Shown: positions 9,176 to 25,393 of the stretch, piece after piece | Numbering within the stretch: position 1 is the first letter of the stretch | Layout of the letters: each line of letters begins with the position of its first letter | The notes under the pieces: model-generated | The model's database searches: none | Seen by the model: the letters and a program-made list of their open reading frames with translations, nothing else | Told to the model about the DNA's origin: nothing | Program-made: the position numbers and the translations under genes | Source of the DNA: Acidobacteriales bacterium 13_1_40CM_3_55_5 | GTDB lineage: Bacteria > Acidobacteriota > Terriglobia > Terriglobales > Acidobacteriaceae | Reading direction: 5' to 3' | Length of the DNA stretch: 33,011 bases | Assembly (NCBI GenBank): GCA_001918935.1 | Contig: MNGW01000133.1 | Location: 13,514-46,524, forward strand

Positions 9176-9676
9176 CTAATGTTTTGCGGCCGCTGCGAGC
9201 TCTCCCTGGCGGCGCCGGTTGTAGCGCAGGGCGATGTTCATGAAGACGTTTCCGCTGGCGGTTTCGAAGCAGATCACCAGAGCCTCAGTGTCTTCGCTGC
9301 TTTTAGATCCGTGCTCTGAAGTGTGTAGCACAGGAGGATGTACGCGGAAATGGAAGCCCTGATCGTTGAGTGCGGTGATCGCGTTTCCGGTTACCTGGTT
9401 CGCCAATTCGCAAACCGTTTCTCGCACTAGATCGTCCGACTCGGGCAGTTCGCTGGCGGCGAAGCGGCTGGCTACACGCACCGCTGTAGCTGGGTCGAGA
9501 TCAAAAATGATGCGCCCTTCGATGTCACCGGTCACCGAAATGAGCGCGGCAACTCCCTTGCGGCGATAGGCCTCTTCATCCATGCTGAGGTTTCCAATCG
9601 ACGTTGGAGACTGCAGTCCTTGCGCAAGCACCGCATCGGCGGCGTTAATGAAGGGCTGAATTAGCTCCATTTTCAT
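9176..9676 (-). CDS. cheX: CheX-like CheY-phosphate phosphatase
   Basis: This 166-residue protein has the CheC/CheX/FliY phosphatase fold. Helix residues E90 and N93, in VCELANQVTGNAI, form the ExxN catalytic motif that inserts into the CheY-phosphate active site in known CheX proteins. The pattern DIEGRIIFDLDPATAVRVAS fits the first half of the domain. Only one ExxN helix is obvious, which favours CheX over CheC. It is the last gene of the chemosensory operon and starts 2 bp after the cheY stop, so the phosphatase is made together with its probable substrate. An AGGAG sequence precedes the ATG at 9676. An alternative ATG two codons later is possible. Confidence 0.85.
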   Translation of the reverse strand: MKMELIQPFINAADAVLAQGLQSPTSIGNLSMDEEAYRRKGVAALISVTGDIEGRIIFDLDPATAVRVASRFAASELPESDDLVRETVCELANQVTGNAITALNDQGFHFRVHPPVLHTSEHGSKSSEDTEALVICFETASGNVFMNIALRYNRRRQGELAAAAKH

Positions 9677-9678
9677 TT

Positions 9679-10113
9679 TCAGGCTCCTGCGCCGGCGGCC
9701 ACGGTTCCATCTTCGCCCAAAACATACTTGATGACCTCGTACAGAACTTCCGGTTTCACTGGCTTCTGGACAAAGTGGCGGGCGCCGCGCTGAAGTGCGG
9801 CCACGATGTTTTCCTGATAGCCGACGGAAGACACCATCACAATGCGAGCTTCGGGATGTTGGCGCACGATTTTTTCCGCGGCCTCGATCCCTTCCATCTG
9901 CGGCATGGTGATGTCCATCAGCACAATATCGGGATGGGTGCGCTCGTATTCGGTTATGGCGGTCATGCCATCGCCTGCTTCTCCGGCAAGTTGACCGCCG
10001 AAGGTTTCGATCATGCGGGCGAGATTCTTGCGGGCGAAGACGGAATCGTCGACTACGAGGTAGCGGACGGGTTGGCCGTCTTTGCTGCGTTTAACGGGTG
10101 AAAACTGCTCCAT
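9679..10113 (-). CDS. cheY: CheY-type single-domain response regulator
   Basis: This 144-residue receiver has the acidic pair in VVDDSVFARK, phosphoacceptor Asp67 in DIVLMDITMP, the Thr/Ser switch region in MVSSVGYQ, and the conserved Lys in VQKPVKPEVL. There is no output domain. As the only free receiver in the chemosensory operon, it is the likely phosphorylation target of CheA and substrate of the adjacent CheX phosphatase. With no flagellar genes nearby, its output partner is unknown. A 156-bp spacer with three hairpins separates it from cheB, so it may be expressed at a different level from the upstream genes. GGAGGAG lies just before the start. Confidence 0.93.
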   Translation of the reverse strand: MEQFSPVKRSKDGQPVRYLVVDDSVFARKNLARMIETFGGQLAGEAGDGMTAITEYERTHPDIVLMDITMPQMEGIEAAEKIVRQHPEARIVMVSSVGYQENIVAALQRGARHFVQKPVKPEVLYEVIKYVLGEDGTVAAGAGA

Positions 10114-10156
10114 ATACTCCTCCTACTGATTTGAATCAAAATCTTCGGTTTATTTC

Positions 10157-10233
10157 GTCCCTCCGGGACTCGTTCTCTCTACTCCATACCCAGGGCTTAC
10201 GCCCTGGGCTAAACTCTTCCGCCCCTTCGGGGC
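10157..10233. repeat. Cluster of three short GC-rich hairpins (REP-like) between cheB and cheY
   Basis: Three perfect palindromes lie in a row: GTCCC-TCC-GGGAC (10157-10169), CCCAGGGC-TTAC-GCCCTGGG (10189-10208) and GCCCC-TTC-GGGGC (10221-10233). They fill most of the spacer within an otherwise compact operon. This resembles dispersed REP-type elements and could also act as an RNA stability or attenuation signal. Confidence 0.7.
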
Positions 10234-10269
10234 TTGATTCGACTAACTCCCCTGGCTCAGGAAATCAAA

Positions 10270-11382
10270 TTAGATTCGTCCTGCTCCTGCCGCTTTGTCG
10301 CCGGTCCCGGGTTCCGATATGCCGCCATTTTTTCGATCAACGGTGCACTGTGCTTGCAAGGTGTTGGCGAGCACCTCCAACCCAACGACGCGCACAGCGT
10401 AGCCACGATCAATGGCAGCTTTAGGCATGCCAAAAACTACGCAGGAATCTTCGCTCTGCGCAATGGTCATTCCGCCTGCGGCCTTGACCTCACCCATGCC
10501 TTGGGCTCCGTCGTCTCCCATGCCAGTCATCAGGACGGCCAGGCTTCTGGAGCCAAATTCCTCGGCCACACTTCGGAACAGAACGTCCACCGACGGACGG
10601 TGTCCGTTCACCCGTGGATCGTCGCTCAGCACTGCGACATCCCCAAGGGGCAAACGCTTGACCTTGAGATGTCGGCTCCCGGGGCAGATCAGAGCTCGTC
10701 CGGCCAGCAACCGATCGCCGGATTGTGCCTCCTTGATTCCAATGGCGCAGATTTCGTCCAGTCGCCGGGCAAACATTTCGGTGAATCCCTCAGGCATATG
10801 TTGCACCACTAAAATGCTTCCGGGAAAATCACCAGGTAACTGAGAGAGTACATATTGCAGCGCGTGAGGGCCGCCGGTAGAAACCCCGATGGCGACAACT
10901 CGCGAAACCAGCTTGCTCGCGTCGGGCAGGACTTTTTGCGCTCGCGTCAGGGTTTCCGGTACTGGCCTCATTTTCACTCCGCGACTCTGAGCCGCGGCCT
11001 TGATCTTGGTAATCAACTCCTGCGCAATTTGTGGCATGCGTGCCGAGACATCGTTGGGCTTGGCAACAAAATCGAAAGCGCCCATCGACAGCGCTTGCAG
11101 GGTAACGGAGGCGCCTTCGGTACTGTGTGAACTCACCACTATGACCGGGATTCGGTGCCGCCGCATGATTTCCTTGAGCATCTCCAAGCCACCCATGCCG
11201 GGCATATCCAGATCGAGGGTGACAACCTGGGGTTTCAGATCTTCAATTTTTTTCAGCCCGAAATTGCCATCCATGGCGGTGCCGACGACTTGGATAGAAC
11301 TGTCCGTCGCCAGGATCTGCGGAATCAGTTTGCGCATCAGCGCGGAATCGTCTACGACCAAAACTCTCACTGGAGGCGTCAT
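10270..11382 (-). CDS. cheB: Chemotaxis-type protein-glutamate methylesterase/deamidase CheB
   Basis: This 370-residue protein has an N-terminal receiver (residues 5-125; DDS acidic pair, phosphoacceptor Asp57 in VVTLDLDMPGM) joined by a linker to the C-terminal methylesterase. The catalytic triad is visible as Ser168 in AIGVSTGGP, His195 in VVQHMPEGF and Asp291 in TGMGDDGA. It removes methyl groups from glutamates, and deamidates glutamines, on methyl-accepting receptors when phosphorylated by CheA. The start overlaps the cheA stop by 4 bp, indicating coupling. The domain order and length are standard. Confidence 0.97.
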   Translation of the reverse strand: MTPPVRVLVVDDSALMRKLIPQILATDSSIQVVGTAMDGNFGLKKIEDLKPQVVTLDLDMPGMGGLEMLKEIMRRHRIPVIVVSSHSTEGASVTLQALSMGAFDFVAKPNDVSARMPQIAQELITKIKAAAQSRGVKMRPVPETLTRAQKVLPDASKLVSRVVAIGVSTGGPHALQYVLSQLPGDFPGSILVVQHMPEGFTEMFARRLDEICAIGIKEAQSGDRLLAGRALICPGSRHLKVKRLPLGDVAVLSDDPRVNGHRPSVDVLFRSVAEEFGSRSLAVLMTGMGDDGAQGMGEVKAAGGMTIAQSEDSCVVFGMPKAAIDRGYAVRVVGLEVLANTLQAQCTVDRKNGGISEPGTGDKAAGAGRI

Positions 11383-13535
11383 GGTTGTGCCTCCACGACG
11401 GGTCGGTGGGTTTGCGAGCGGTCTGCATGTGAGAGCAGGATGCCGGAAGCTACAGCACCAATTTGACCGGGACGAGAGTTCGCATAGCGCTCGACAATGG
11501 CAGGAAGATTCAAGATCAGCACCACCCGGCCATCGCCCAAAATGGATGCGCCACTGACTAAATCCGTCGAGACGGTCTGGTCATCCAGGGCTTTGATCAC
11601 TAATTCTTCTTCGCCCTCGAGCGCTTCGACGATCAGTCCCAGTTTGCTTTCACTAACCGTTATCACAAGCACGAAAATTTTCCCCGCCGCTTGTGCAGGT
11701 TGGGCTGAGGGACGGCCCAGCCGGACCAGCGGCAGCACCTGGTTGCGAAGTTGTAGAACTTCGTAGTTGTCCACCTGGTGTAAGTCAGATTCTTTGGCCC
11801 GCGCAATTTCCGCCACGGCGTTGAGCGGGATCGCATACAGCCGCCCCTCCACCCGGAATAGCAAGGCTTTGATGATGGCCAAAGTCAGGGGCAACTTTAG
11901 GCGAAAGGTTGTGCCCTGGCCAGGATGAGTTTCAATTTCTACGGTTCCTTTCAAGCGATGGAGAACGCTCTGCACGACGTCAAGGCCTACGCCACGTCCC
12001 GCGAGCTCGGTGATTTCGTCGGCTGTGCTGAATCCGGGGCGGAAAACCAGCGCAATAATATTTGCTTCACTCAGCCGCTCGGCTTCATCCACGCTGACAA
12101 TCTTTTTTTCCAACGCCTTGGATTTAACCTTTTGGGAATCGATTCCACTGCCGTCATCTTTGATCTCGACGATAACCTGATTGCCTTGGTGATAAGCATC
12201 CAGCCGAATGGTTCCGCGCGTTGGTTTTCCCAGACGGGCACGCTCTGCCGCGTTTTCAATGCCGTGACCGACCGCGTTGCGCACGAGATGAGTGAGCGGC
12301 TCGGCGATGGCGTCCAGCAGGCTTTTATCAAGATCGGTGTCTTGACCGCTTATGATCAGGTCAACCTCCTTGCCGCCTTGCTTCGCGACATCGCGGACCA
12401 TTCGCGGAAAGCGGCGGAACAGTTGCTCTACCGGGACCATTCGAATCTTCATTACCGAACGCTGCAGGTCATTCAATACGCGTGATTGAAAGGCCATGGC
12501 GTCGGCTACCCTGCCACGCATGGATTCCTTCGGCGAATGCTTGGTCAATTCCTGGAATGCTTGTTGCAGCATCGACTTCCCGATAATCAATTCTCCAACC
12601 AGATTCAGGACGTTATCGATGCGCTCGGCGTCAACGCGCAAAATGTTTTCTGCCACCGCCCCAAGGTGCAGATTTTCCCGACTCTCATACTCTTCTGCTG
12701 CGGACGTGAAGGTGTTTTTGGGGATGGGCTCACTGGAGATTCCATTGGGTTCTTTGGGCTTGTTCTCTGATGCCGCGCTTTTCTTTGATACTTTTCCTTT
12801 GATTGGCTCCACACCGGCTCGCGCGATCACCGTCGGAATACGGCACTTCGCCGTAACTTTTTCCATCGACAGGGGGCTGGCGAGTAGTAACTCCAATCGG
12901 TCAGTGTTCGCAGGCGAGTCGGTCTCAGGCCGTACGGCGACCACCTGACCCACTGCGCCGACGGCGTTCAGCAGAAGTTGTCGAGCAGCGATCGGCATGG
13001 CACAACGTGGGTCAATTTCCGCCTTGATGTGATAGACGCGTTTGCCTTGCTTCAATGCATTCTGAATTTCAAGCTTTTCATACTCGGTCCACTCGGCCTT
13101 CGCGGCTGAGGTTTTCGCGGCCTTCTTCTTTCCGCCCTTTTCGCTGGATGACGCTTTACCGAGTTGTTGGATCATCTTCCGCAGCGGTTCTGCTGACGGA
13201 AGCTTTGCCCGGCGGCGGTAAGCATTCAGCATGGACCCAAATATGTCCGCAGCAGTGAAGGCAACCTCCGCCAAGCCGGTGTGGGACGAAGCGGTTTCTA
13301 CAGCCAGTGCGTCCTCGAGCTCGTGTGCAGACTCGCTCAATTCGCGATAACCACAGGCGGCGGCGTCCCCTTTCAGGGTATGAACGGTGCGGCGGATGCT
13401 GCGCACGATTTCCGCATCGCCTGGATGCTTTTCCAGTTTCAGCGCTTCCTCATTCAGCGACTGCAAGAGTTCCTGCGCGGTTTCAAAAAACAACTCGCGC
13501 AATTCAGCTCCGCGTTCGTCAGAGAACTGAGTCAC
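11379..13535 (-). CDS. cheA: Chemosensory histidine kinase CheA
   Basis: This 718-residue CheA has an HPt (P1) domain with phospho-His52 in TVHTLKGDAAACG. A second small domain around residues 150-250 begins EYEKLEIQNALKQGKRVYHI and may be the P2/response-regulator-binding module. It is followed by P3 dimerisation (DAERIDNVLNLVGELIIGKS, about 300-330), P4 ATPase (N box near 416-427, G1 IKDDGSGID, G2 ELAGRGVGLDVVQ) and a CheW-like P5 domain near 560-700. One oddity is the N box, which reads HLVRNAVGHGIE: Gly423 replaces the Asp found in the usual RNxxDHGIE. It is coupled by 4-bp overlaps to cheR upstream and cheB downstream. Confidence 0.97.
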   Translation of the reverse strand: MTQFSDERGAELRELFFETAQELLQSLNEEALKLEKHPGDAEIVRSIRRTVHTLKGDAAACGYRELSESAHELEDALAVETASSHTGLAEVAFTAADIFGSMLNAYRRRAKLPSAEPLRKMIQQLGKASSSEKGGKKKAAKTSAAKAEWTEYEKLEIQNALKQGKRVYHIKAEIDPRCAMPIAARQLLLNAVGAVGQVVAVRPETDSPANTDRLELLLASPLSMEKVTAKCRIPTVIARAGVEPIKGKVSKKSAASENKPKEPNGISSEPIPKNTFTSAAEEYESRENLHLGAVAENILRVDAERIDNVLNLVGELIIGKSMLQQAFQELTKHSPKESMRGRVADAMAFQSRVLNDLQRSVMKIRMVPVEQLFRRFPRMVRDVAKQGGKEVDLIISGQDTDLDKSLLDAIAEPLTHLVRNAVGHGIENAAERARLGKPTRGTIRLDAYHQGNQVIVEIKDDGSGIDSQKVKSKALEKKIVSVDEAERLSEANIIALVFRPGFSTADEITELAGRGVGLDVVQSVLHRLKGTVEIETHPGQGTTFRLKLPLTLAIIKALLFRVEGRLYAIPLNAVAEIARAKESDLHQVDNYEVLQLRNQVLPLVRLGRPSAQPAQAAGKIFVLVITVSESKLGLIVEALEGEEELVIKALDDQTVSTDLVSGASILGDGRVVLILNLPAIVERYANSRPGQIGAVASGILLSHADRSQTHRPVVEAQP

Positions 13536-14446
13536 AGAGTCACCTCGACGCGCTGATAAGCGGTTCCACTGTTGCGGTGAACCATGGTGAACTGATCGGT
13601 CAGGCCCAGAAGGCTCTCGGCGTGTCCAACGAACAGATGGCCTTCGGGATTCAAGCAGCGTCCGAACTTTTCGATCAGGCGTTTTTGTTCGGCTTCGTCG
13701 AAGTACATCATCACATTGCGGCAGAAAATGATGTCGTTGCGCTGCGGCAGGTATTCCGTTTTCAGGTTGTGAAAGTCGAAATGGACCAACTCCTTCAACG
13801 CCTTCTTAACCACGTATCGCTCGCCCACTTTGTCGAAATAACGCAGGCGATAGCTGTAGTCCACTGCAGACATCTGGGTCTCGTTGTACGCACCTTCTTG
13901 CGCGGCCCGCAGCACTGAATAACTAATATCGCTGGCCAGAATTTCAACTTTCCAGGGAGAAGGAACCAGCGGCTTCGGCAAGGGCATATCCACCGGAAAA
14001 GAATTGCGAAGATAGTGATAGGACAAGGCATCGACCACCAGCATTGCAATCGTGTAAGGCTCCTGTCCGGTCGAGCAACCCGCGCTCCAGATGCGGACAG
14101 AGTAATCGCGGCGCTCCTGTTTACGGCGAAGCAGATGATCCAGAATGTATTTGTGAAATAGCTCGAGTTGGGCTTTATTGCGGAAAAAGCTGGTTTCGTT
14201 GACCGTAAGATTTTCTAGCAGACGGGCCAGTTCCTGTTTACCTTCGTGACTGATCAGCAGCCGATAGTAGCTGTAGAAAGAATCGAGCTGGCATTCCTTC
14301 AATCGTCGTTGCAGACGGTCCTGCAGAAAGTGAGTGCGACGGTCGTCGAAATGCATGCCGCATTCCTGATAGATAAGTGCCTGCAAGAGCTTCAGTTCGG
14401 CTTCGGTGAGTTGGACCGTCGCGCCCGATATGCCCAGTGTGCTCAT
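13532..14446 (-). CDS. cheR: Chemoreceptor glutamate methyltransferase CheR
   Basis: This 304-residue protein has the all-helical N-terminal CheR domain ending in the conserved NLTVNETSFFR segment. A Rossmann-type SAM domain follows, with RIWSAGCSTGQEPYTIAML (SAM-binding glycines) and the signature IIFCRNVMMYFD around residues 240-255. It methylates receptor glutamates and opposes CheB. No C-terminal TPR extension is present. It overlaps cheA by 4 bp and follows cheW by 32 bp. All hallmark residues are intact, unlike the second CheR at 25.5 kb. Confidence 0.96.
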   Translation of the reverse strand: MSTLGISGATVQLTEAELKLLQALIYQECGMHFDDRRTHFLQDRLQRRLKECQLDSFYSYYRLLISHEGKQELARLLENLTVNETSFFRNKAQLELFHKYILDHLLRRKQERRDYSVRIWSAGCSTGQEPYTIAMLVVDALSYHYLRNSFPVDMPLPKPLVPSPWKVEILASDISYSVLRAAQEGAYNETQMSAVDYSYRLRYFDKVGERYVVKKALKELVHFDFHNLKTEYLPQRNDIIFCRNVMMYFDEAEQKRLIEKFGRCLNPEGHLFVGHAESLLGLTDQFTMVHRNSGTAYQRVEVTL

Positions 14447-14478
14447 TCGTTCTCTTCTTCCCTTGCCAACTCGAAACG

Positions 14479-14979
14479 CTATTTCGCTGCCGCGCCGCGA
14501 GCATTGGTCGCAGGCTGCCGCTCTTCGACATCCGCAAGCGCCTGGTTCGGCCCGCTGTATTCGAGCAGCTTAGCCATGTCCAACAGCACAATCAGGCGTC
14601 CCTTGTACTTGCCAAGTCCGGTAACGCAATTTAATCGGCCTTCCCTGAATACTTGAGGAGCAGGCTCGACATCGCCTTCGGGAATCTTGAGCACTTCAGA
14701 AGCAGAATCCACAATCAGCCCGGAAAGACGCCCCTTATGTTCGACCACCAGAATGCGATGCCGCCTGGCCCGCGCGACTTTTTTCTGCCCGAAACGTTTG
14801 CGCAAATCGATGACCGAGACAATCTTGCCGCGCAGGTTGATGACGCCCTCGATGTAATCCGGCGCGTCCGGCACGGCCGTGATCTCCGGCACGCGCACGA
14901 TTTCATGCAAAGAGGTGATGGGCACGCCGTAAGTCTCGTGTCCCAGCTGAAACCCGACAATGTGCAGTTCGCGATTCAT
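14479..14979 (-). CDS. cheW: Chemosensory coupling protein CheW
   Basis: This 166-residue CheW has the typical opening VGFQLGHETYGVPITSLHEI, the IEGVINLRGKIVSVIDLRKR core signature near residues 43-62, and GLIVDSASEVLKIP in the second subdomain. The roughly 25 C-terminal residues (ATNARGAAAK end) are low-complexity. CheW bridges receptor tips and CheA P5 to form the signalling array. It starts 11 bp after the mcp stop, immediately following the receptor gene, which fits a dedicated receptor-CheW-CheA complex. Confidence 0.95.
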   Translation of the reverse strand: MNRELHIVGFQLGHETYGVPITSLHEIVRVPEITAVPDAPDYIEGVINLRGKIVSVIDLRKRFGQKKVARARRHRILVVEHKGRLSGLIVDSASEVLKIPEGDVEPAPQVFREGRLNCVTGLGKYKGRLIVLLDMAKLLEYSGPNQALADVEERQPATNARGAAAK

Positions 14980-14990
14980 GTGGATGATGA

Positions 14991-16982
14991 TCAGCCGCGA
15001 ACGCCAGCGGCTGCCTGCCGGGCATTGCCCTTAGTGCCTGTTTTGTCCTCGCGGCGTCCCATTATCCGTTCAATTTGTTCGAGCGCGAATCGATCCATGG
15101 AGTCCAGCAGTCCGCGCGACATCTTGGACATCTGCTCGGCTGAGGCCGCCAATTCCGTGGAACCGGAAGTTGTCTGCTGCACCAGTTCGCGCATGCGCTC
15201 CATGGCCTTGACCACGGCGTGTGCGCCTGATGCCTGTTCTTCTACGGCGGAGTTGATCTCGTGAGTAATTTCATTCAGCCGGGTGGTAGCTCTAGCGATT
15301 TGCGAAGAGCCATGGGACTGCTCATTGGTGGCAGCGCCGATTTCCTGCGCGAACTTATAAACTTCGGTGACCACGTTAGAGATCTTGCGCAGAGCCGCAT
15401 TCAATTCCTGGCCCAGACCCAATCCATCGTTGACGATGCCCGTGCTTCGATCCATGTTTTCTACCGCTTTGCGGGCTTCTTTTTGAATACTTTGAATCAG
15501 CTCGGAGATTTCTTTGGTGGACTGCGCCGATTTTTCCGCTAGTTTCCTGACCTCGTCGGCGACCACGGCAAAGCCCAAACCGTGCTCTCCGGCACGCGCC
15601 GCTTCGATGGCGGCGTTCAGGGCCAATAAGTTGGTCTGTTCGGCGAGATCGTCAATTACCTCGATGATCTTGCCGATATCATCCGCACGCTGACCGAGGG
15701 CATCGATTATTTCGCCGGAAGAGCGAATCGTGACGTTGATACGGTTCAACCCATCCGTAGCCTTTTCCATGGTGGTAATGCCGCTGTGCACCTCTTCTCT
15801 CGAACGATTGGAGATATCCAGCAGCACTTTGGCGGTATCCGCGACTCGTTGAATAGAAGCCACCATTTGATCGATTGACGCAGAGGTTTCGCTGACACTC
15901 GAAGCCTGCACCTGGGTGCTCTTCACCATGTTTTGTACGTTGACGCTCATCTCGTGCATGGTGCTGGTGACTTCGTCGATGGCGGACGCGGTTTGCAGGC
16001 TGATCTTTGCCGACTCGTCGGATGCCCCTGCGACCTGACTGGAGGCGCTTGCCACTTGGGAAGCAGCATCGCGGACGTTGAATACTAGACTCCTTAATCC
16101 CTCGATCATGCGGACAAAGGCATTGCCTAAAGTGTCGTCTTTGGAGCGGGGCTGAACTACGACATTGAGGTTGCCTCCCGCGATGGCTTCCGAAACGGTC
16201 GCCATCTCTTTGAGGTAAGTGACCATTTTGCTGAAAGTTCTAGCGAGTTCTCCGATTTCATCGTTACGCTTGATGTCGATCATGTGATCCAGATCGCCGG
16301 CATTGCCGATCTGTTGAGCCACCTTCATCAAGTTGCGCAGCGGCTCAGTAATCGATTTGGAGGTGGAGTAAGCGATCACAACACCCAAGGCCAGAGCGAT
16401 CAAGGTGCTGGTCAGGGCGACGAGGATGGTGGCGGTCTCGGCAGTGCCGTCGGACCTCCGTCGATCCTCGAGCATTTTCTTGTTTTCCTGATCGGCCAAT
16501 TCCAGGTATTGGGTGGCTGACCTTACCCACGAAGAAGCATCTTTCTGCAGATAAAAAATCTGCAGTTCTGCGACGGTTGCATTGCCTGCGTCAACTTCTT
16601 TGCGTTTTTCCACCAAAGGCAAGGCAAATTCTCTGGCCCAGTTCTGCTCGGTTTCGTGTACGTGGTCCAGGGCTACGCGTTCCTGTTCTGAGTTGGATAA
16701 TGCCCGGGTACTCTGCAGCTTCTCGGAAAGAATTTGAATACCGTCGTTCATGCGGTCGGCTTCGCGAGTGTCGCCGCTGAGCAGGTAGTTGCTCAGATAA
16801 AGGCGGTTTTGCATGATCTGAAATTTGACTTTATCGGTGGCGTCGGCCAGCGCCAGTGCCTGCGAGGCTGCAGCTTTGGCGCTGTGTTCCCGCTGGACAG
16901 CCACCAGATTGATCAGGAACAGCACCAACACCATCGCCAGGATGGCTCCGAAATTAACGTAAAGTTTCTTGCCAATCGTCAT
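14991..16982 (-). CDS. Methyl-accepting chemotaxis protein with periplasmic helical sensor and HAMP
   Basis: This 663-residue receptor has TM1 near residues 9-27, a periplasmic helical region (about 30-180, four-helix-bundle-like), TM2 near 186-206 ([19 protein letters not shown]), HAMP near 207-260, and a long cytoplasmic coiled coil. The hairpin-tip signature [19 protein letters not shown] sits near residue 450. It lacks a CheR-tethering C-terminal pentapeptide (it ends Ala-Gly-Val-Arg-Gly). It is the first gene of the chemosensory operon and the only receptor in the window. GGAGG precedes the ATG by 7 nt. The ligand is unknown. Its promoter appears to be the sigma-54-type element at 17137-17122. 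Confidence 0.96.
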
Positions 16983-17121
16983 CGCTGTTCCTCCGTGAAA
17001 CGAGTCGCCGCCGATCTAGTTCGTCGACCGGCCTGACGTAAACCCCTTAGTCGGAGGGCCCAATTCTCGGGCTTAGTGGTAAAGACACACATCCTCCCCC
17101 GCAGTAATGCTGTGCTCTAAG

Positions 17122-17137
17122 TGCAATGTCGTTGCCA
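17122..17137 (-). promoter_or_regulatory. Sigma-54-type (-24/-12) promoter for the chemosensory operon
   Basis: Read on the minus strand, the sequence is TGGCAACGACATTGCA. It has TGGC at -24, TTGCA at -12, and exactly 10 nt between the GG and GC dinucleotides. This is close to the consensus TGGCACG-N4-TTGCA. Transcription would start near 17111, giving a leader of about 130 nt before mcp. The TGAGAC half-site cluster lies about 95-145 bp upstream, a normal enhancer distance. Confidence 0.7.
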
Positions 17138-17231
17138 GCATCCCGCCAAGTACCCGGAATTCGTAAACAGGTTATAACTCATTGTCAACAAGCAGGTTGT
17201 CGCCTGGGACTTGAATGCAATCGACCCCACA

Positions 17232-17283
17232 GTGAGAGCGGAAACCGTCTCACAGTCCTGCCTTCCTCTCACTATGAGACGGT
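17232..17283. promoter_or_regulatory. Cluster of four TGAGAC/GTCTCA half-sites (putative enhancer for the NtrC-type activator)
   Basis: Half-sites are GTGAGA (17232-17237), CGTCTCAC (17247-17253 core), TCTCAC (17267-17272) and TGAGACGG (17275-17282). They form two inverted pairs, with 10-bp and 2-bp gaps. The inverted sequences ACCGTCTCA (17244-17252) and TGAGACGGT (17275-17283) are exact complements 31 bp apart. The cluster lies between two divergent sigma-54-like promoters, and the motif recurs at 23123-23145. Confidence 0.6.
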
Positions 17284-17327
17284 GGGAACGACATCGATAT
17301 GCCGAGGGGATTTCCCAAGTCGGCACC

Positions 17328-17343
17328 TGGAGCTTTATTTGCT
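17328..17343 (+). promoter_or_regulatory. Sigma-54-type (-24/-12) promoter for the kinase/NtrC operon
   Basis: TGGAGCTTTATTTGCT has TGG at -24 and TTGCT at -12, with exactly 10 nt between GG (17329-17330) and GC (17341-17342). Transcription would start near 17354, leaving a 75-nt leader. The half-site cluster ends about 45 bp upstream of the -24 element. The -24 box is weaker than that of the che promoter (TGGAG rather than TGGCA). Confidence 0.55.
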
Positions 17344-17352
17344 TGACTCAAA

Positions 17353-17382
17353 TTGAGATTAGAAGCTAATTTGCTGTATATT
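17353..17382 (+). promoter_or_regulatory. Alternative sigma-70-like promoter for the kinase gene
   Basis: TTGAGA (17353-17358) and TATATT (17377-17382) are separated by 18 bp. This would start transcription close to the kinase gene and could give basal expression alongside the sigma-54-type promoter. Chance AT-rich matching is not excluded. Confidence 0.3.
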
Positions 17383-17428: not shown

Positions 17429-20400
17429 ATGCCAGCTGGAGATACGAGCGTCATGGAGGGAGCAACGCCACGGTTGGATGAGGCGTTTCAAAAGCTGCTC
17501 CTGCGATTCTCGGCTGCGGCAGCGAAAGGAATCGATGCTCCTGCGCTAATCCGTCTATTCTGCCGGGCTACACGGGAATTCTTTCGTGTGGATGGAACGT
17601 ACTTCTGGAGTGTGCTTTCTTCCTCCGAGATGGTTGGGACGGAAGCGGACGGTTTGCAGGCAGAATCCTTTCGAGGTAAACGCCTGAAGGCCAGTCAAAG
17701 CGCCGTGGCGCTGGAGGCGGTTCGGCTGCGCAAGACGGTCTATGTGAATCGCCTGGATCCCGCCCGCTACCCGTTGGCGGGCGAATTTCGTGCCCGATCT
17801 CTGATGGCGGCGCCGCTGGTGGTTTCGAACGAGGTAATTGGTGCGGCAGTGTTTTTGCATGCCTCGGACAGGGATTTCTTCTCCGAGGACTTATCAGCCA
17901 AGGCGACGATCCTGGCTGGTCAACTGGGCAGCTTATTGGAAGCCAGCCGTCTCTCTCAGGTTTCACGTGAGGAGCGCCGCCGCGCCGAAATCCTGGCCGA
18001 AGTGGCCCAGGCGATCCATTCCGTGCCGGCTGCGTCTGCTGTGGTCGAGGCCGTGGCGGATCGTCTGCGGGTCTTGCTGCGCACTCGCCTGGTATGCATC
18101 CTGTTACGCGAAGGAGGGGCATTCGGCCTGCGTGCCGTCTCGGCTGAATCGCCGCAACTGGCAGGATCAGTCCGTACCCGTCACGATCGCAAAGGTCTGC
18201 ATTTTGCCGCTGACCTGGCGATGCGCGCGATTGCTGCTGGCGAACCTATCAGCGTTGCAATCGATCCCAGCAGCCACGCTTTGGGAGACTTGGTGCCGGC
18301 GGGCATGCTGATCGCAGCTCCTTTCCGAACTTCAGTCAGCCAGGGTGCGGTGCTGGTCTACCCTCGCCAGGAGGGCGCTTTCAACGCGGAAGATAAGTCC
18401 TTGGTTTCCGCAGTGGCCGGTTTTGGCGCTGTCGCCATTGCCAATGCGGAGCTCTACGCCACTGCCCAGGCACAAGCGCATGAGCTGCATCAGTTGCTCG
18501 ATATCTCGTCCGAACTGGGATCGATCGGGCATCTCGATGAGTTCATGCAGCAATTCGTGCTGCGGGCCAGTGATTTCCTGGGTTTCAGCCGCGCTTTCAT
18601 AGGGTTGCTGGAAGATGGCGTTTTTCACCTGCGTTGGGGAACTGACAACGGGGTGGCCGATCCCATGGATCACGAGTTTCCCGAAGGCACCGCCCACCGA
18701 GCTTTGACCAACAAAGAGGTTTTTTGGACGGACGATCCCAAGAAGGTTCCCGACGCGAATCTGGAAATGATTGGCAAGTTGAAGGTACGGCAAATATTGG
18801 CCGTGCCGCTGCTGGGTAGCGATGGCCAGGTCTTAGGCATGTTTGGTGTACTCGATCGAGTGGACCGGCAGGGAATTTCTCAGGAGGATATTCGCCGCGC
18901 CCAGGTTTTAGCGGCGCAAGCAGCCATTGTGCTGGAGGTTACTCGCAATCTGGATCAGTCTGAGCAACATCGGCGCCGTGCCGAATCATTGATGGGCTTG
19001 GCCCTCGAATTGAATCCACTGCGCCGCCTTCCGGAATTCGCCAGGAGTTTTGTGGCCCGCGCCGCCGATATGATGGGCGCTCGCGGCGCAGCCTTGGTGG
19101 TCAAGCAGGATTCGGTCCTGGAAACCCTGGTGTTGTGGTCCGCCAGCAGCGACCTCCACCCGGAGATCTCGCTCTTGCGACGTTTCAGCCAAGCCGTGGG
19201 AGAAGCTTTATCCGGGCATCAGGATGCGATCATTTCCGCGCTGGCAACCGATCTTATCGGCCGGGAACTAGCTTTGGATTTGGAATGGAGCGAGTGCACC
19301 CTGGTGCGTCTGCTCGGCGCTACAGGAGAAATGGTTGGAGTACTTTGCCTTGGGGATCGCGGAAAGCCACTTACGGCGAATGACCAGCAACTTTTGCAAG
19401 CTATTGCCGGTCACGCTTCGGTTGCACTGGAGAATGCCCGTCTTTTCACTCACATGGAACAGGCGAACCGGCACTGGATCGAAATCTTCGACGCCATTAG
19501 CGATTTCATCGTGGCTCACGACGAATCTGGAAGCGTCCTGCGCGTAAACCGGTCGCTGGCAAACTTTATTGGGGTGCCACCGCAGGAATTGATTGGACTG
19601 AACATGTCCGCGCTGCTGGCAGTTGATAGCAGCGCGCCAGTTAACGTCTGCCCGTTTTGCCGCATGGGGAACGATGCCGCGGATGAGTACATCCATCCTG
19701 TGCTGGAACGCACCTACCTCGTGTCAAGCTCGCGCGTCCATGGCGCCGGCAACGAGGGCCCGCAAGTTATTCATGTGCTGAAAGACATCACCGATCGCCG
19801 TGAAGCGGAACGCCGCTACCGCGAGCTATTTGACAACGTCCAGGAAGGATTATTCTTTTCCACGCCGGATGGCCGTTTCGTCGAAGTGAACGATGCCCTG
19901 GTTCGCATGCTGGGCTATCGCAGCCGGGAAGAGTTGTTGCAAGTGGACATTCGTACCAAGATTTATGCTTCCCCCGAAAGACACCACGAATTCGCTGACG
20001 AGATGAACCAACACGGGGTGGTGCGCAACCGCGAGGAAACCCTTATCCGCCAGGATGGATCTGTAGTTCATGTCTTAATCAACGCGTTTGCGGTCCGCGA
20101 CACGCAAGATAGGATTTTGCAATACCGCGGTTTGATGCTCGATATCAGCGGTCTAAAGAGCTTCCAGGCAGAATTGCAGCGTGAACGCGACTTCTCCGGC
20201 AAAATTCTTAACAATACCCAGAGCTTGATCCTGGTAGTTGATACCGCGGGCTTAGTGAGCTACGGCAACCGGCGTTGGTATGACATGGGTTATGAGCAGC
20301 GGGAACTGCTGGGGAAACCGCTCGAAGATTTGGTCGCGCCTTCCCGACGCCAAGTCTTCAACGATGCGTTTAATGCAACTCTGGCGGGCAATCAGGTTGA

Positions 20401-21274
20401 CAATTTGGACGTTCAAATCCTGCGCGGTGACGGACGAGTGGGCCAATTCTCGGTCAACCTGAGCCCGATGCGGGACGAGCAAGGCAACATCACCAGCCTA
20501 GTAGTGGTCATGACGGATATCACCGACGCGGCTACTCTCCAGTCCAAGTTAATGCACGCGGAAAAGATGGCCGCTGTAGGCCAACTGGTTTCAGGTGTCG
20601 CTCACGAGGTCAATAACCCGCTTACCGCCATCCTGGGTTTTGCCGACCTGCTCATGGAAAATAGCGACGTTCCGGAAAGTGCGCGCAAAGATCTGCGCGT
20701 CATCCTGCAGGAGGCACAACGAACCAAGCAGATCGTCCAGAACCTCCTGAGCTTTGCCCGTCAGATGCCGCCGCACCGTAAGGCGGTGCAGGTGAATAGT
20801 ATTCTTCGTCGCACAGTTCAGTTGCGTGCTTATGACTTTCACAGCCATGGAGTCACGGTCATCGAGCGCCTGGAGCAAGATATCCCTCACGTAATCGGGG
20901 ATTCACAACAGCTCCAACAGGTATTCCTCAATATTCTGAATAATGCCTACGATGCGGTGCGTGAAACTGGCCGGCCGGCGCGCATCGAGCTCATGACTGC
21001 TGGGATGGGCAACGTTGTCGAGGTTTCATTCAAGGATAATGGTCACGGGATCACGCATTCGGACCGCATTTTCGATCCCTTCTTCACCACCAAAGAAGTG
21101 GGAAAGGGAACTGGTCTTGGCTTGAGCATTTGTTACGGAATTGTGCGGGAGCACGGGGGAGAGATTCTCTGTCATAACAATGTGGGCGACGAGGGAGCCA
21201 CCTTCGTCGTTCGCCTGCCGGCTTCATCAGAACCGGCCCCGGTCGGGATTGTTGCGGGAGTTATGCAATCATGA
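17429..21274 (+). CDS. Large soluble hybrid-sensor histidine kinase: four GAF, three PAS, HisKA, HATPase
   Basis: This 1281-residue protein has no membrane span. By eye there are four GAF-like modules (about 22-180, 190-345, 352-505, 515-672), then three PAS modules (about 676-790, 795-915, 918-1035), each followed by a PAC-like tail such as HVLKDITDRREAERRYRELF. The kinase core has phospho-His1059 in SGVAHEVNNPLTAILGFADL, an N box in QQVFLNILNNAYDAV, G1 DNGHGI and G2 GKGTGLGLSI. This HisKA type is typical of NtrB-like kinases that pair with sigma-54 activators. PAS1 includes a CPFC pair (around 735), a possible metal or redox site. It overlaps the next receiver gene by 4 bp. The start at 17429 is preferred; Met9 is an alternative. 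Confidence 0.93.
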   Translation: MPAGDTSVMEGATPRLDEAFQKLLLRFSAAAAKGIDAPALIRLFCRATREFFRVDGTYFWSVLSSSEMVGTEADGLQAESFRGKRLKASQSAVALEAVRLRKTVYVNRLDPARYPLAGEFRARSLMAAPLVVSNEVIGAAVFLHASDRDFFSEDLSAKATILAGQLGSLLEASRLSQVSREERRRAEILAEVAQAIHSVPAASAVVEAVADRLRVLLRTRLVCILLREGGAFGLRAVSAESPQLAGSVRTRHDRKGLHFAADLAMRAIAAGEPISVAIDPSSHALGDLVPAGMLIAAPFRTSVSQGAVLVYPRQEGAFNAEDKSLVSAVAGFGAVAIANAELYATAQAQAHELHQLLDISSELGSIGHLDEFMQQFVLRASDFLGFSRAFIGLLEDGVFHLRWGTDNGVADPMDHEFPEGTAHRALTNKEVFWTDDPKKVPDANLEMIGKLKVRQILAVPLLGSDGQVLGMFGVLDRVDRQGISQEDIRRAQVLAAQAAIVLEVTRNLDQSEQHRRRAESLMGLALELNPLRRLPEFARSFVARAADMMGARGAALVVKQDSVLETLVLWSASSDLHPEISLLRRFSQAVGEALSGHQDAIISALATDLIGRELALDLEWSECTLVRLLGATGEMVGVLCLGDRGKPLTANDQQLLQAIAGHASVALENARLFTHMEQANRHWIEIFDAISDFIVAHDESGSVLRVNRSLANFIGVPPQELIGLNMSALLAVDSSAPVNVCPFCRMGNDAADEYIHPVLERTYLVSSSRVHGAGNEGPQVIHVLKDITDRREAERRYRELFDNVQEGLFFSTPDGRFVEVNDALVRMLGYRSREELLQVDIRTKIYASPERHHEFADEMNQHGVVRNREETLIRQDGSVVHVLINAFAVRDTQDRILQYRGLMLDISGLKSFQAELQRERDFSGKILNNTQSLILVVDTAGLVSYGNRRWYDMGYEQRELLGKPLEDLVAPSRRQVFNDAFNATLAGNQVDNLDVQILRGDGRVGQFSVNLSPMRDEQGNITSLVVVMTDITDAATLQSKLMHAEKMAAVGQLVSGVAHEVNNPLTAILGFADLLMENSDVPESARKDLRVILQEAQRTKQIVQNLLSFARQMPPHRKAVQVNSILRRTVQLRAYDFHSHGVTVIERLEQDIPHVIGDSQQLQQVFLNILNNAYDAVRETGRPARIELMTAGMGNVVEVSFKDNGHGITHSDRIFDPFFTTKEVGKGTGLGLSICYGIVREHGGEILCHNNVGDEGATFVVRLPASSEPAPVGIVAGVMQS

Positions 21275-21672
21275 CACTGCCTTCCGCCAAACCAGAGGCC
21301 TTGCCGGTCCTGCTCATTGAGGACGAACCTGGTGTGATGGCTTACGTCCGCGCCACCCTGGAACGCAATGGCTACACTGTGGTGTGTGCTGAGTCTGGCG
21401 CGGAGGGCGTTCGAATATTGGAATCCGGAGAATTTCTGGGTGTGGTTTCCGATATGCGCACCCCCGGCGGCATAGATGGCGCGGATGTACACGCCTGGAT
21501 TTCGCAGCACCGTCCTGAGCTTATTTCACGGATTGTTTTCATCACCGGCGACATCGCCAGCGAGGACACTGTTTCCACGCTGCGACGAACCGGAGCACCC
21601 TGCGTGGAGAAACCCTTTCGAGTGCGGCAGTTCATTTCAGTGATCGAGAATGCTATGGGGAAGGCACTGTGA
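21271..21672 (+). CDS. Single-domain response regulator between kinase and NtrC-type activator
   Basis: This 133-residue receiver has the acidic pair in LLIEDEPGVM, phosphoacceptor Asp61 in GVVSDMRTPGGIDG, Thr in VFITGDIASEDT, and Lys in CVEKPFRVRQF. It has no output domain. It overlaps the kinase by 4 bp (ATGA) and the activator by 4 bp (GTGA), so all three are probably made in fixed proportion. It may be a phosphate sink, a phosphorelay intermediate, or a competitor of the activator for the kinase. The loop after Asp61 (RTPGGIDG) resembles receivers found in hybrid NtrB-type kinases, suggesting it derived from a detached hybrid receiver. Confidence 0.92.
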   Translation: MTLPSAKPEALPVLLIEDEPGVMAYVRATLERNGYTVVCAESGAEGVRILESGEFLGVVSDMRTPGGIDGADVHAWISQHRPELISRIVFITGDIASEDTVSTLRRTGAPCVEKPFRVRQFISVIENAMGKAL

Positions 21673-23084
21673 GTGATGACTTACGTATCCGCCTGCTGAT
21701 TGTGGATGACGAACAGAGCATCCGCAAACTGTGCATGACCGTGGGTGAGGCGCTCGGCTTTGCTTGTATAGAAGCGGATAGCGGCGAATCCGCTCTTGCC
21801 CTGCTCGAGGAGCAACCTGCTCATATCATTCTGACTGATATGGTCATGCCTAACATGTCCGGTCTCGAGTTTCTGGAACGCGTGAAAAAGCTGTTTCCTC
21901 GCACCGAAGTCGCGGTCATGACGGGTCACGGTTCAGTGGAAACCGCAGTGCAGGCGATGAAGCTCGGAGCTTACGATTACATCAGCAAACCCTTCTCCCC
22001 GCTTGAAGAGCTGCGCCTGTTCCTGCGACGCATGGCCGAAAAGATACGCTTGGTGGAAGAAAATCAGTTTCTGCGCGAACGCATGGATACAGAAACCGAG
22101 CTGCACGGAATTGTCGGCGCCTCGACCAAGATTCAGGATGTGCTGCGCATGATTTCGCGGCTGAAAGATACGCGAACTCCGGTTCTGATCGCGGGCGAGA
22201 GCGGTACAGGCAAAGAACTGGTTGCCCGCGCCATTCATTTCCGCGGCCCATTCGCCAATCGTCCATTTGTCGCGGTGGACTGCGGATCGCTGGTGCCGAC
22301 GTTGATCGAGAGTGAACTTTTCGGATACGAAAAAGGCGCATTCACCGGCGCATTGAAGTCGAAGACAGGATTATTCCAGTCGGCCAATGGAGGAACAATA
22401 TTTCTGGACGAAATCGGAGAACTACCGCTGGAACAGCAAGCCAAGCTGCTCCGTGTGTTGCAGGAAAAAGAAGTGCGCCCTGTGGGCAGCAATCAAAAAG
22501 TAAAAGTCGATGTGCGGATAATTGCCGCCACCAACCGCGATCTCGAGGCCGAATATCGCAATGGCACTTTCCGCAAAGATCTTTATTTCCGTCTTAACGT
22601 AGTCACTGTCCATCTTCCATCGTTGCGCGAGCGACGCTCCGATATCCCTATGCTGGCGCATTGGTTTCTTGATCGTTACGCTCCTGGCGATGACATCCAG
22701 GTGACCACTGCAGCTATGAAATGCCTGCTGCAATATGACTGGCCGGGGAATGTGCGCGAACTAGAGAACTCGATCGAACGCGCGGTTGCCTTGGGTGACC
22801 GTCGGACCATCGACATGAATGATCTGCCTCCCACCATTGCATCGGCATCTTCTTCCCCCGACTCCGGCTTGGAGTTACCCTCATCGAGTCTTAGTTCCAC
22901 CGATCTGGAAGACATTGAACGCGCCACTATCCAGAGAGTTTTCGAACAAGTGAAGGGTGATAAGGCCTTGGCGGGAAAGATGCTCGGCATCAGCCGTGCC
23001 ACGCTTTACCGGAAGCTGAAGCGCTATAACATTGGGCCGCGGCAGGCTCTTGCCGCACCACCTACCAGTCAAGCACTGCAATAA
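21669..23084 (+). CDS. NtrC-family sigma-54-dependent response regulator
   Basis: This 471-residue activator has a receiver (Asp57 in [13 protein letters not shown]), an AAA+ sigma-54 interaction domain, and a Fis-type helix-turn-helix. Walker A is GESGTGKE (176-183), the GAFTGA loop that contacts sigma-54 is intact (223-228), Walker B is [10 protein letters not shown] (about 242-251), and [17 protein letters not shown] lies near 362-380. The recognition helix region [19 protein letters not shown] lies near the C-terminus. It should remodel sigma-54 holoenzyme at -24/-12 promoters when phosphorylated, probably by the kinase two genes upstream. It starts at GTG 21669, preceded by GGGGAAGG. The flanking TGAGAC sites are its likely targets. 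Confidence 0.96.
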
Positions 23085-23122: not shown

Positions 23123-23145
23123 TGAGACGAGTCTCACAGTGAGAC
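23123..23145. promoter_or_regulatory. Triple TGAGAC/GTCTCA half-site array upstream of the PilZ-like operon
   Basis: TGAGAC (23123-23128), GTCTCAC (23131-23137) and GTGAGAC (23139-23145) alternate in orientation. They form two overlapping palindromes, TGAGAC-GA-GTCTCA and GTCTCAC-A-GTGAGAC. The array lies 85-107 bp upstream of a sigma-54-like promoter and 39 bp after the NtrC-type stop. It matches the cluster at 17232-17283, supporting a common binding protein. A transcription-terminator hairpin is a less likely alternative, as no U tract follows. Confidence 0.65.
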
Positions 23146-23229
23146 ATTTGTAGCCTCTGTCCCGTGCGACCCGGATCAGTAGCTGTTTCTTAATCAATGT
23201 CTTAGAGGCGATTCAGAGTCCAGAGTCTT

Positions 23230-23245
23230 TGGCTGCGCTCGTGCA
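23230..23245 (+). promoter_or_regulatory. Sigma-54-like promoter before the PilZ-like operon
   Basis: TGGCTGCGCTCGTGCA carries TGGC at -24 and GTGCA at -12, with exactly 10 nt between GG (23231-23232) and GC (23243-23244). The -12 box differs from TTGCA at one base. Transcription would begin near 23257, about 70 nt before the TTG start of the next gene. Confidence 0.5.
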
Positions 23246-23326: not shown

Positions 23327-23677
23327 TTGCCCAGAGAAGCCACAGCACCGGGACGATCTTCCCGCGAAAGCTCAACTGCCAAGCTGGCGAAGTTCTTTCC
23401 GGATTCGACCCCACTTCGCATCGCCGTTTCTTTGACTCGGGTGGAAGGGAAAGGCGGAATTGCCAGCGAGAGCACGGTCATCGAATTCGGTACGCCGCAC
23501 GAGGTACTTTTCGCCTCGACATTGCCCCTGGAATTTGCCGACAAGCTGCGACTGCGTAATTCCGACGGCACGCTGGACGTCGAAGCATGCGTCGTGGCCC
23601 TGCAATATAACGGCTCACGAACCGCGGTGGCTGCACGCTTTACCCAAGAGGTCGCGAATTGGATCGTGAAACCATGA
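23327..23677 (+). CDS. PilZ-like small protein (divergent)
   Basis: This frame of about 116 residues has an early basic segment (RIAVSLTRVEGKGG) and a following beta-rich part: ESTVIEF, HEVLFASTLPLEFADKLRLR, EACVVALQYNGSRTAVAARF, then a terminal Trp-Ile-Val. This order of strands resembles PilZ domains, which bind cyclic di-GMP. However, the RxxxR and D/NxSxxG ligand motifs are not evident, so it may be a non-binding PilZ relative. The start is TTG at 23327 after GAGGT; no better start is seen, so the N-terminus is uncertain. It overlaps the next gene by 4 bp (ATGA), supporting reality and co-translation. Confidence 0.6.
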   Translation: MPREATAPGRSSRESSTAKLAKFFPDSTPLRIAVSLTRVEGKGGIASESTVIEFGTPHEVLFASTLPLEFADKLRLRNSDGTLDVEACVVALQYNGSRTAVAARFTQEVANWIVKP

Positions 23678-24678
23678 GTACCCTCCCGGAATCCGACGAA
23701 TCAGCAGCCGAGTGGCAGGAGTTGCTTCTCCTTTACCCCCTCTATTGCGCGCTCGACCGGGAGTTCGTAATCGAGTTTCCACGCTGTAGTGACCTGGAAG
23801 GCGGAGTAGAGGCTCCGACGCAAGAGTCTGTCGAGCAGGCCCAGCAATGGTTCGCGGACATGGATCAGCGCATACAAGTCCATCAATTGCGCCAATTCCT
23901 GCAAACCACCACTCTGACCAGCGAGAACGGCTTGCGCGCCATGCTTCAGCATTACTTGGGCAAGCTGCAGCGCAGCAGTTCTGATCGCGACAAGATCGAC
24001 TTCCTGCTGGTTCAATTCTTTTCCCATTGTGCACCTTCTCGCCTGCAAGATGAAGATGTCGAAATTGCATATGTGGCCCAGGTCCTCGAACCTATTTTTA
24101 GCACTGGCGATTTCAGCGCTCCCGATTGGCTGGCGCCGCTCGATGAATACCTGCGCGCCGCCAACGATTGTCGCAGCCTGAATGATTTGCTCACCGCGGG
24201 CATCCTGGAAAAGGGAAGAAAGCTAAAAGCCAACGCGGGGGAGAAATATTTCGTGCCCGGTGCGATGGTGGCCTTCACCCGCTTCAGTTTTCTGATGCGG
24301 CGTGTTTTCTTTCGCTTGATGCATCAAGATCTCAATTCCATTCTGGACGGCCTGCGCGAACTCGAGGTACGAGGCGTGAGCACCCTGGATTGCCGCCGCG
24401 CACAATTTTCCGCAGACGAGCCGATCGCTCGGCTGCGTATGATATGCCAATCGTGGAAGGTGATGTTTCACGCCGAATACTCTTCTGGGCAGCCACTGCG
24501 CATGCTGGTGGACCTTCGCGCGGTGATCAATGCAGCATTAGCGCGGACGCCGACGAGCGCCAGCGCTCGCACTAAGACCGCCGCGGCAGGCGTCAATTCT
24601 TCTGCCAGCAATTCGGAAGCGCCAGAGTTCGTGGTTTCCAGCGATTCTCCTGATCGGAAGGACGACGGCAGCGCATAG
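23674..24678 (+). CDS. Unrecognised, mostly helical protein in the chemosensory regulon
   Basis: This protein has 334 residues from the ATG at 23674, which overlaps the PilZ-like stop. I do not recognise a family. It appears soluble with no signal peptide or membrane span. Visible features are a Leu-rich N-terminal helix (WQELLLLYPLYCALDREFVI), several amphipathic helices (HQLRQFLQTTTLTSENGLRA; RFSFLMRRVFFRLMHQDLNS), and a low-complexity Ala/Ser/Thr tail after about residue 285. It has no obvious catalytic motif. Its position between PilZ-like and receiver-like genes, with tight spacing, implies a role as a scaffold or adaptor in the same signalling pathway; this is inference. The frame is strongly coding-like and long relative to chance. 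Confidence 0.8.
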   Translation: MSTLPESDESAAEWQELLLLYPLYCALDREFVIEFPRCSDLEGGVEAPTQESVEQAQQWFADMDQRIQVHQLRQFLQTTTLTSENGLRAMLQHYLGKLQRSSSDRDKIDFLLVQFFSHCAPSRLQDEDVEIAYVAQVLEPIFSTGDFSAPDWLAPLDEYLRAANDCRSLNDLLTAGILEKGRKLKANAGEKYFVPGAMVAFTRFSFLMRRVFFRLMHQDLNSILDGLRELEVRGVSTLDCRRAQFSADEPIARLRMICQSWKVMFHAEYSSGQPLRMLVDLRAVINAALARTPTSASARTKTAAAGVNSSASNSEAPEFVVSSDSPDRKDDGSA

Positions 24679-24703
24679 GAACCGGGTGTCATCAGGAACG
24701 GAG

Positions 24704-25393
24704 ATGAAAGTGGACTTGCGTACAGTATTGATCATTTCGGATGACCCGGAATTTGCGCGCACCATCATGGCCCGATGGCAAAGCGAAAATAACATGCCGT
24801 CGTTCACCGTCATGAAAGGTGATCTCTGCCAGAAGCTGGACGCCGATAGTTTCGAAGTAGCCATTGTGGGTGCGGTGCGGCCAACTGTTCTTGTCCCCGT
24901 TCTCAAGGCGCTCGAGCCCTTGCCGAAGCCCGTGTTGTTCATATGGGACGGTGGTCAGGCCGTAGAAACGGTGCGCGGATCTCAATTGCGAGCGATGGTT
25001 CTGCGTCAGCAGGCGGGCTGGTTGGATGCTCTGGTACTGGTCGTATCGGAAGCATTGCGGCACTGCGAAACGCTGGCTCGTGCCATCCGCGTTGAAGAAG
25101 CCAATGTCTTACTGAAGCGTCAGGCCACACTGGGTCGTTACATTCTGGAAATGCGGCACAGTTTGAATAATGCGCTCACCTCCGTGTTGGGCAACGCTGA
25201 GTTACTTTTGCTCGAACCGGAGACGCTCTCCGCGGGCGCGCGCTCACAGATCGAAACCGTCCGCAACATGGCTTTACGTATGCACGAAATCCTACAGCGC
25301 TTTTCTTCCCTGGAAAAAGAGCTGACCGTGATCGAGAGGCAAATAGAGAAGGCAAGTACATCGAAGGCCCTAAAAGCGGCCTCGACTACGTAA
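24704..25393 (+). CDS. Degenerate receiver fused to a kinase-type dimerisation (DHp) domain, no ATPase
   Basis: This protein has 229 residues. Residues 1-120 look like a receiver (TVLIISDDPEFARTIMARW, then FEVAIVGAVRP, VLFIWDGG), but the phosphoacceptor Asp is replaced at the end of beta-3 (VAIVGAV). Residues 145-215 match a HisKA dimerisation/phosphotransfer helix pair, with His152 in EMRHSLNNALTSVLGNAELL, closely resembling the H box of the upstream kinase (VAHEVNNPLTAILGFADL). No HATPase domain follows. It could be a phosphotransferase like Spo0B, or a phosphatase/decoy that binds receivers. ATG 24704 has AGGA 6 nt upstream; a GTG at 24686 is an alternative. Confidence 0.75.
   Translation: MKVDLRTVLIISDDPEFARTIMARWQSENNMPSFTVMKGDLCQKLDADSFEVAIVGAVRPTVLVPVLKALEPLPKPVLFIWDGGQAVETVRGSQLRAMVLRQQAGWLDALVLVVSEALRHCETLARAIRVEEANVLLKRQATLGRYILEMRHSLNNALTSVLGNAELLLLEPETLSAGARSQIETVRNMALRMHEILQRFSSLEKELTVIERQIEKASTSKALKAASTT

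Follow-up and report, generated by a model that had tools for sequence, protein, structure and literature searches.

In enteric bacteria, NtrC represses transcription of its own operon, glnALG. Autorepression by NtrC is also described for ntrBC of Caulobacter (PMC10274813). On the TOL plasmid of Pseudomonas putida, XylR activates the Ps promoter of xylS and represses its own divergent promoter Pr, from which xylR is transcribed (PMC3469447). For Geobacter, sigma-54 promoters were predicted upstream of che clusters in the section of the study considered here (PMC2577667). In Myxococcus xanthus, the Che3 chemosensory system, which is coupled to CrdS, controls phosphorylation of the NtrC-type protein CrdA (PMC3510030), and the NtrC-like regulator of the NmpRSTU system has pilR as its reported target (PMC6211767).

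We analysed a contig stretch of 33,011 nucleotides (the window) from a draft acidobacterial genome that is 74% complete, whose named close relatives include Candidatus Sulfotelmatobacter and Acidobacteriaceae MAGs. Here, a che operon and a kinase-receiver-NtrC operon diverge from a 446-bp intergenic region (Table 1). Judging from sequence comparisons, the NtrC-type protein probably activates two flanking chemosensory-related operons via sigma-54 while repressing the sigma-70 promoter from which it is itself transcribed. Such a scheme resembles the Pr/Ps pair, in which the sigma-54 activator likewise switches on a divergent promoter and turns down its own (PMC3469447). XylR, however, is an effector-binding catabolic regulator, whereas the present locus pairs an NtrC-type protein of the two-component kind with chemosensory operons, and places a separate operator across the -35 box. 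With NtrC autorepression it would share the pairing of a kinase with an NtrC-type protein, negative feedback on the own promoter and activation of sigma-54 targets; unlike in Caulobacter and enteric bacteria, these targets would be adjacent chemosensory operons instead of nitrogen genes, and the operator sequence differs. Sigma-54 promoters ahead of chemosensory operons are the trait common with Geobacter, although that section of the Geobacter account describes no adjacent activator, enhancer or autoregulation (PMC2577667). In the Che3-CrdS/CrdA case a chemosensory cluster is likewise coupled to a kinase and an NtrC-type regulator, but there the chemosensory system acts on the regulator, whereas our evidence concerns the regulator acting on chemosensory genes (PMC3510030). 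NmpRSTU is similar in that an NtrC-like regulator, accompanied by a kinase and a receiver, binds in front of its own operon and is linked to type IV pilus motility; its target is pilR, whereas a chemosensory operon is proposed here (PMC6211767). Our literature search yielded no study of chemosensory genes under sigma-54/NtrC control in Acidobacteriota and none of this exact combination; the novelty appears to lie in the combination and in its being conserved.

Table 1. Genes and predicted control elements of the locus (window coordinates)
Feature	Position	Strand	Details
Che operon, remaining genes	9176..14979	-	CheW, CheR, CheA, CheB, receiver, CheX (Pfam; same-strand order)
HAMP/MCP chemoreceptor	14991..16982	-	first che operon gene; Pfam MCPsignal, HAMP
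Sigma-54 (-24/-12) promoter of che operon	17122..17137	-	TGGCAACGACATTGCA; GG-N10-GC; 1 mismatch to consensus
O1, enhancer operator half-site	17247..17252		GTCTCA; exact match
O2, enhancer operator palindrome	17266..17280		CTCTCACTATGAGAC; one mismatch to GTCTCA-N3-TGAGAC
Sigma-70-type promoter of kinase-receiver-NtrC operon	17343..17372	+	TTGACT 17343-17348, 18-bp spacer, TAATTT 17367-17372
O3, third, weaker palindrome copy	17345..17359		GACTCAAATTGAGAT; overlaps -35 box; two mismatches; proposed autorepression site
GAF/PAS sensor histidine kinase	17429..21274	+	1281 aa (Pfam)
Single-domain receiver	21271..21672	+	Pfam Response_reg
NtrC-type sigma-54 activator	21669..23084	+	471 aa; receiver, AAA+, Fis-type HTH (Pfam)
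Second operator cluster	23123..23145		TGAGAC half-site and perfect palindrome GTCTCACAGTGAGAC (23131-23145); recurs in most relatives
IHF-like site	23192..23204	+	AATCAATGTCTTA; between operator and sigma-54-like promoter
Sigma-54-like promoter of downstream operon	23230..23245	+	TGGCTGCGCTCGTGCA; 3 mismatches when taken alone
Proposed second target operon	23327..25393	+	116-aa ORF, 339-aa ORF, 235-aa HisKA-like protein

The NtrC-type protein (21669-23084) has the traits of NtrC-family sigma-54 activators, namely a receiver, a Fis-type HTH and an AAA+ domain within which GAFTGA is visible in the translation, and its closest solved structures are NtrC-family regulators. Sigma-54 (rpoN) is encoded in the genome (Sigma54_DBD, 204.8 bits), as are further NtrC-family proteins. 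In nearly all relatives, a small TonB_C gene separates the chemoreceptor gene from the intergenic region. This gene is lost from the window; a remnant at 16983-17093 is recognisable only around the start codon.

About 30 related loci from a group of soil Acidobacteria have preserved the layout, and orthologs of the NtrC-type protein (65-96% identity) are co-inherited with the same che genes and kinase, which they adjoin wherever the contig permits. Since the comparison of 30 loci was anchored on the kinase promoter motif (TTGACT-type), the independent test is the count of the composite O3/promoter pattern across genomes. The O1-O2-O3 arrangement is also present in three named loci (L096, L098, L099) and two genomes (G310, G318) outside the set that defined this pattern, L098 having been let in by a relaxed pattern on account of a one-base variant of its promoter motif. 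The che sigma-54 site is exact in G310 and G318 and has 2-3 mismatches in the three other held-out loci. No che receptor was found in 14 family genomes without an NtrC ortholog; in a fifteenth such genome (G001), whose assembly is 67% complete, the receptor and the same promoter region are found on a contig that stops inside the kinase gene.

On the che side, the sigma-54 promoter that the initial annotation had placed on the minus strand at 17137-17122 is present with its GG-N10-GC spacing. Scored against TGGCAY-N5-TTGCW, a site of its quality turned up in 1.6% of cases when the intergenic region was shuffled by dinucleotides. A che-strand site with at most 1 mismatch occurs in 19/30 related loci, compared with 0.23 in shuffles, and matches the consensus exactly in 10 of the 30; allowing up to 3 mismatches at a fixed distance, 26/30 loci have it in the same place. 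This conservation argues for the proposed sigma-54 control of the che operon. Four of the 30 loci have neither the che sigma-54 site nor O1/O2 yet retain O3, as would be expected if O1/O2 serve the che operon and O3 the kinase promoter; because all of them fall into one unresolved clade, they possibly stand for few events. IHF-like sites on the che side are weakly enriched (6/30 loci vs 2.44 in shuffles), and none is claimed for the window.

A shared enhancer had been read from four TGAGAC/GTCTCA half-sites at 17232-17283. While a putative enhancer is indeed found in the intergenic region, it consists of the O1 half-site and the O2 palindrome: only the half-sites at 17247-17252 and 17275-17280 are exact, whereas TGAGAG (17233-17238) and CTCTCA (17266-17271, the left half of O2) each deviate by one base. 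The significant unit is the 15-bp palindrome GTCTCA-N3-TGAGAC. In the window, O2 was matched at no more than one mismatch in 0/2000 shuffles, and a palindrome with up to two mismatches stands upstream of O3 in 25/30 loci (0.34 in shuffles). In most relatives O1 and O2 are 28-34 bp apart, close to three turns of the helix, whereas the clade of the window has 19 bp instead of about 31. Both are located some 135-165 bp ahead of the predicted che start, near 17111, which is an ordinary distance for an enhancer. The check by conservation in relatives that had been suggested at the outset was thus passed by the che promoter and the operators.

A comparable set of elements follows the ntrC-type gene, where operator, IHF-like site and sigma-54-like site come in the same order in relatives. 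At the sigma-54-like position, TTTGG-N10-GTGCA recurs in most of them. The IHF-like pattern WATCAANNNNTTR was exact in 6/16 members of this downstream set (shuffles 0.05) and present with up to one mismatch in 14/16 (shuffles 1.06). In G007, the downstream operon is 7.4 kb away, yet the operator and the sigma-54-like site are retained. The first two ORFs of the downstream operon (116 and 339 aa; window 23327-24678) are conserved and matched no Pfam family; an assignment of the 116-aa ORF (23327-23677) as a PilZ protein was rejected, as the Pfam search gave it no support. Several relatives (L060, L063, L067, L069) have a third operator with a sigma-54-like site before a receiver-CheW-MCP (or CheW-MCP) operon, an operon that is missing from the window.

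The kinase operon is preceded by a sigma-70-type promoter, whose TTGACT is found in 30/30 loci and is followed after 17-18 bp by TAnnnT in nearly all of them, the loci being anchored on this motif. O3 is likewise present in 30/30; TCA-N3-TGAGA is nearly invariant, and the mismatches concern two palindrome positions in most loci, one of which is dictated by the -35 box. The composite pattern of O3 and sigma-70 promoter occurs once per module genome (23/23), with zero matches for the reversed control; G000 has it twice, owing to a second copy of the locus. Among 396 genomes drawn from the phylum, four contain it, including G310 and G318. The second copy in the draft genome (L003; G000:C1:1-9462) is a truncated che-kinase-NtrC locus of about 82-88% DNA identity, which may be a paralogue or a sibling-species contig binned into the assembly.

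The initial annotation had assigned a second sigma-54 promoter to this side (TGGAGCTTTATTTGCT, plus strand, 17328-17343), so that one enhancer would serve two divergent sigma-54 promoters, and the NtrC-type protein would activate its own operon via sigma-54. Both GG-N10-GC sequences exist in the window, and TTTGCT ahead of TTGACT recurs in some relatives. Against this, GG and GC of the plus-strand site coincide in 1/30 loci, that of the window alone, the closest copies (L003 and L085) have CC in place of the -12 GC, and the invariant sigma-70-type promoter adjoins the site. With 2 mismatches to the consensus it is one among 17 such sites in the 33-kb window and looks like a chance match; we regard a pair of sigma-54 promoters as very improbable. 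A GG-N10-GC match adjoining a conserved sigma-70-type promoter invites such a misreading, which is corrected here. The claim of positive autoregulation finds no support: an operator lies across the -35 box of the invariant sigma-70-type promoter, which points to autorepression. The kinase-operon start had been put at 17354, which is inside O3, whereas the -10 box predicts about 17379. As in the Pr/Ps type, the regulator promoter is, by its sequence, of the sigma-70 type and overlapped by an operator. O3 is centred near -28 and covers the -35 box and spacer, which is the position of a repressor. Conservation of O3 shows use but not direction, and with the same anatomy the O3-bound protein might instead activate or merely modulate the sigma-70-type promoter. 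We consider this unlikely, as the position over -35 box and spacer is typical of repressors and known cases of the same layout are autorepressed (XylR, PMC3469447; Caulobacter NtrC, PMC10274813).

Adjacency is no proof of binding, and another regulator, for example a second of the NtrC-family proteins encoded in the genome, might occupy the GTCTCA-N3-TGAGAC sites. The distribution of the sites makes this rather improbable. Exact palindromes were found in 12/23 genomes that have this NtrC gene vs 1/30 without (p = 5e-5, a Fisher value that counts loci, not events). Most of them belong to the cluster, where they stand ahead of the kinase gene, directly behind ntrC or, in some relatives, in front of the receiver-CheW-MCP operon. 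The paired site geometry is also as expected of an NtrC-type enhancer. The adjacent NtrC-type protein, already suggested initially, is therefore supported as the likely binder. Outside the cluster, palindromes with one mismatch are about as common as those of the reversed control and are no guide to a wider regulon. Two palindromes lie near genes named from translation only, L076 (G000:C141:13530-13544) near a UDP-glucose dehydrogenase-like gene and L070 (G026:C18:150535-150549) near a CpsB-like phosphatase gene; these polysaccharide-type genes are possible distant targets.

According to our proposal of activation combined with autorepression, a single NtrC-type activator would control transcription in both directions from the 446-bp intergenic region. 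Rightwards, the sigma-70-type promoter would serve the kinase-receiver-NtrC operon. The NtrC-type protein, once activated, presumably by phosphorylation, would assemble on O1/O2 and, by DNA looping, make sigma-54 RNA polymerase transcribe the che operon from the promoter at 17137-17122. The cluster at 23123-23145 would provide the same activation for the operon downstream of the ntrC-type gene. By binding O3 over its own -35 box, the protein would block sigma-70 polymerase, resulting in negative autoregulation. This is the simplest model for paired operators at an ordinary enhancer distance together with an O3 placed like a repressor site. Counting against it are the 19-bp O1-O2 spacing of the window's clade, the two deviations of O3 from the palindrome in most loci, the four loci without che sigma-54 site and O1/O2, and the further NtrC-family proteins of the genome. 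It would place the activation-plus-autorepression logic of catabolic and nitrogen regulators at a chemosensory cluster, in a compact local regulon. For the chemosensory systems of Acidobacteriota, a large phylum of soil bacteria, it offers a concrete operator (GTCTCA-N3-TGAGAC), a set of promoters and a testable wiring. A closed loop, in which the NtrC-type protein sets the amount of the array, limits itself and is tuned by the array or by the adjacent small receiver, is a speculative extension that we hold to be improbable; if true, a type-IV-pilus-linked sensory system would adjust its own abundance.

Genome co-occurrence ties the chemosensory cluster to type IV pili rather than flagella and suggests that the module is a type-IV-pilus-linked system. 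Across 33 genomes, whose relatedness confounds both counts, flagellin was found in 6/23 genomes with the module vs 10/10 without it (p = 9e-5), and PilT-type ATPases in 23/23 with the module vs 3/10 without.
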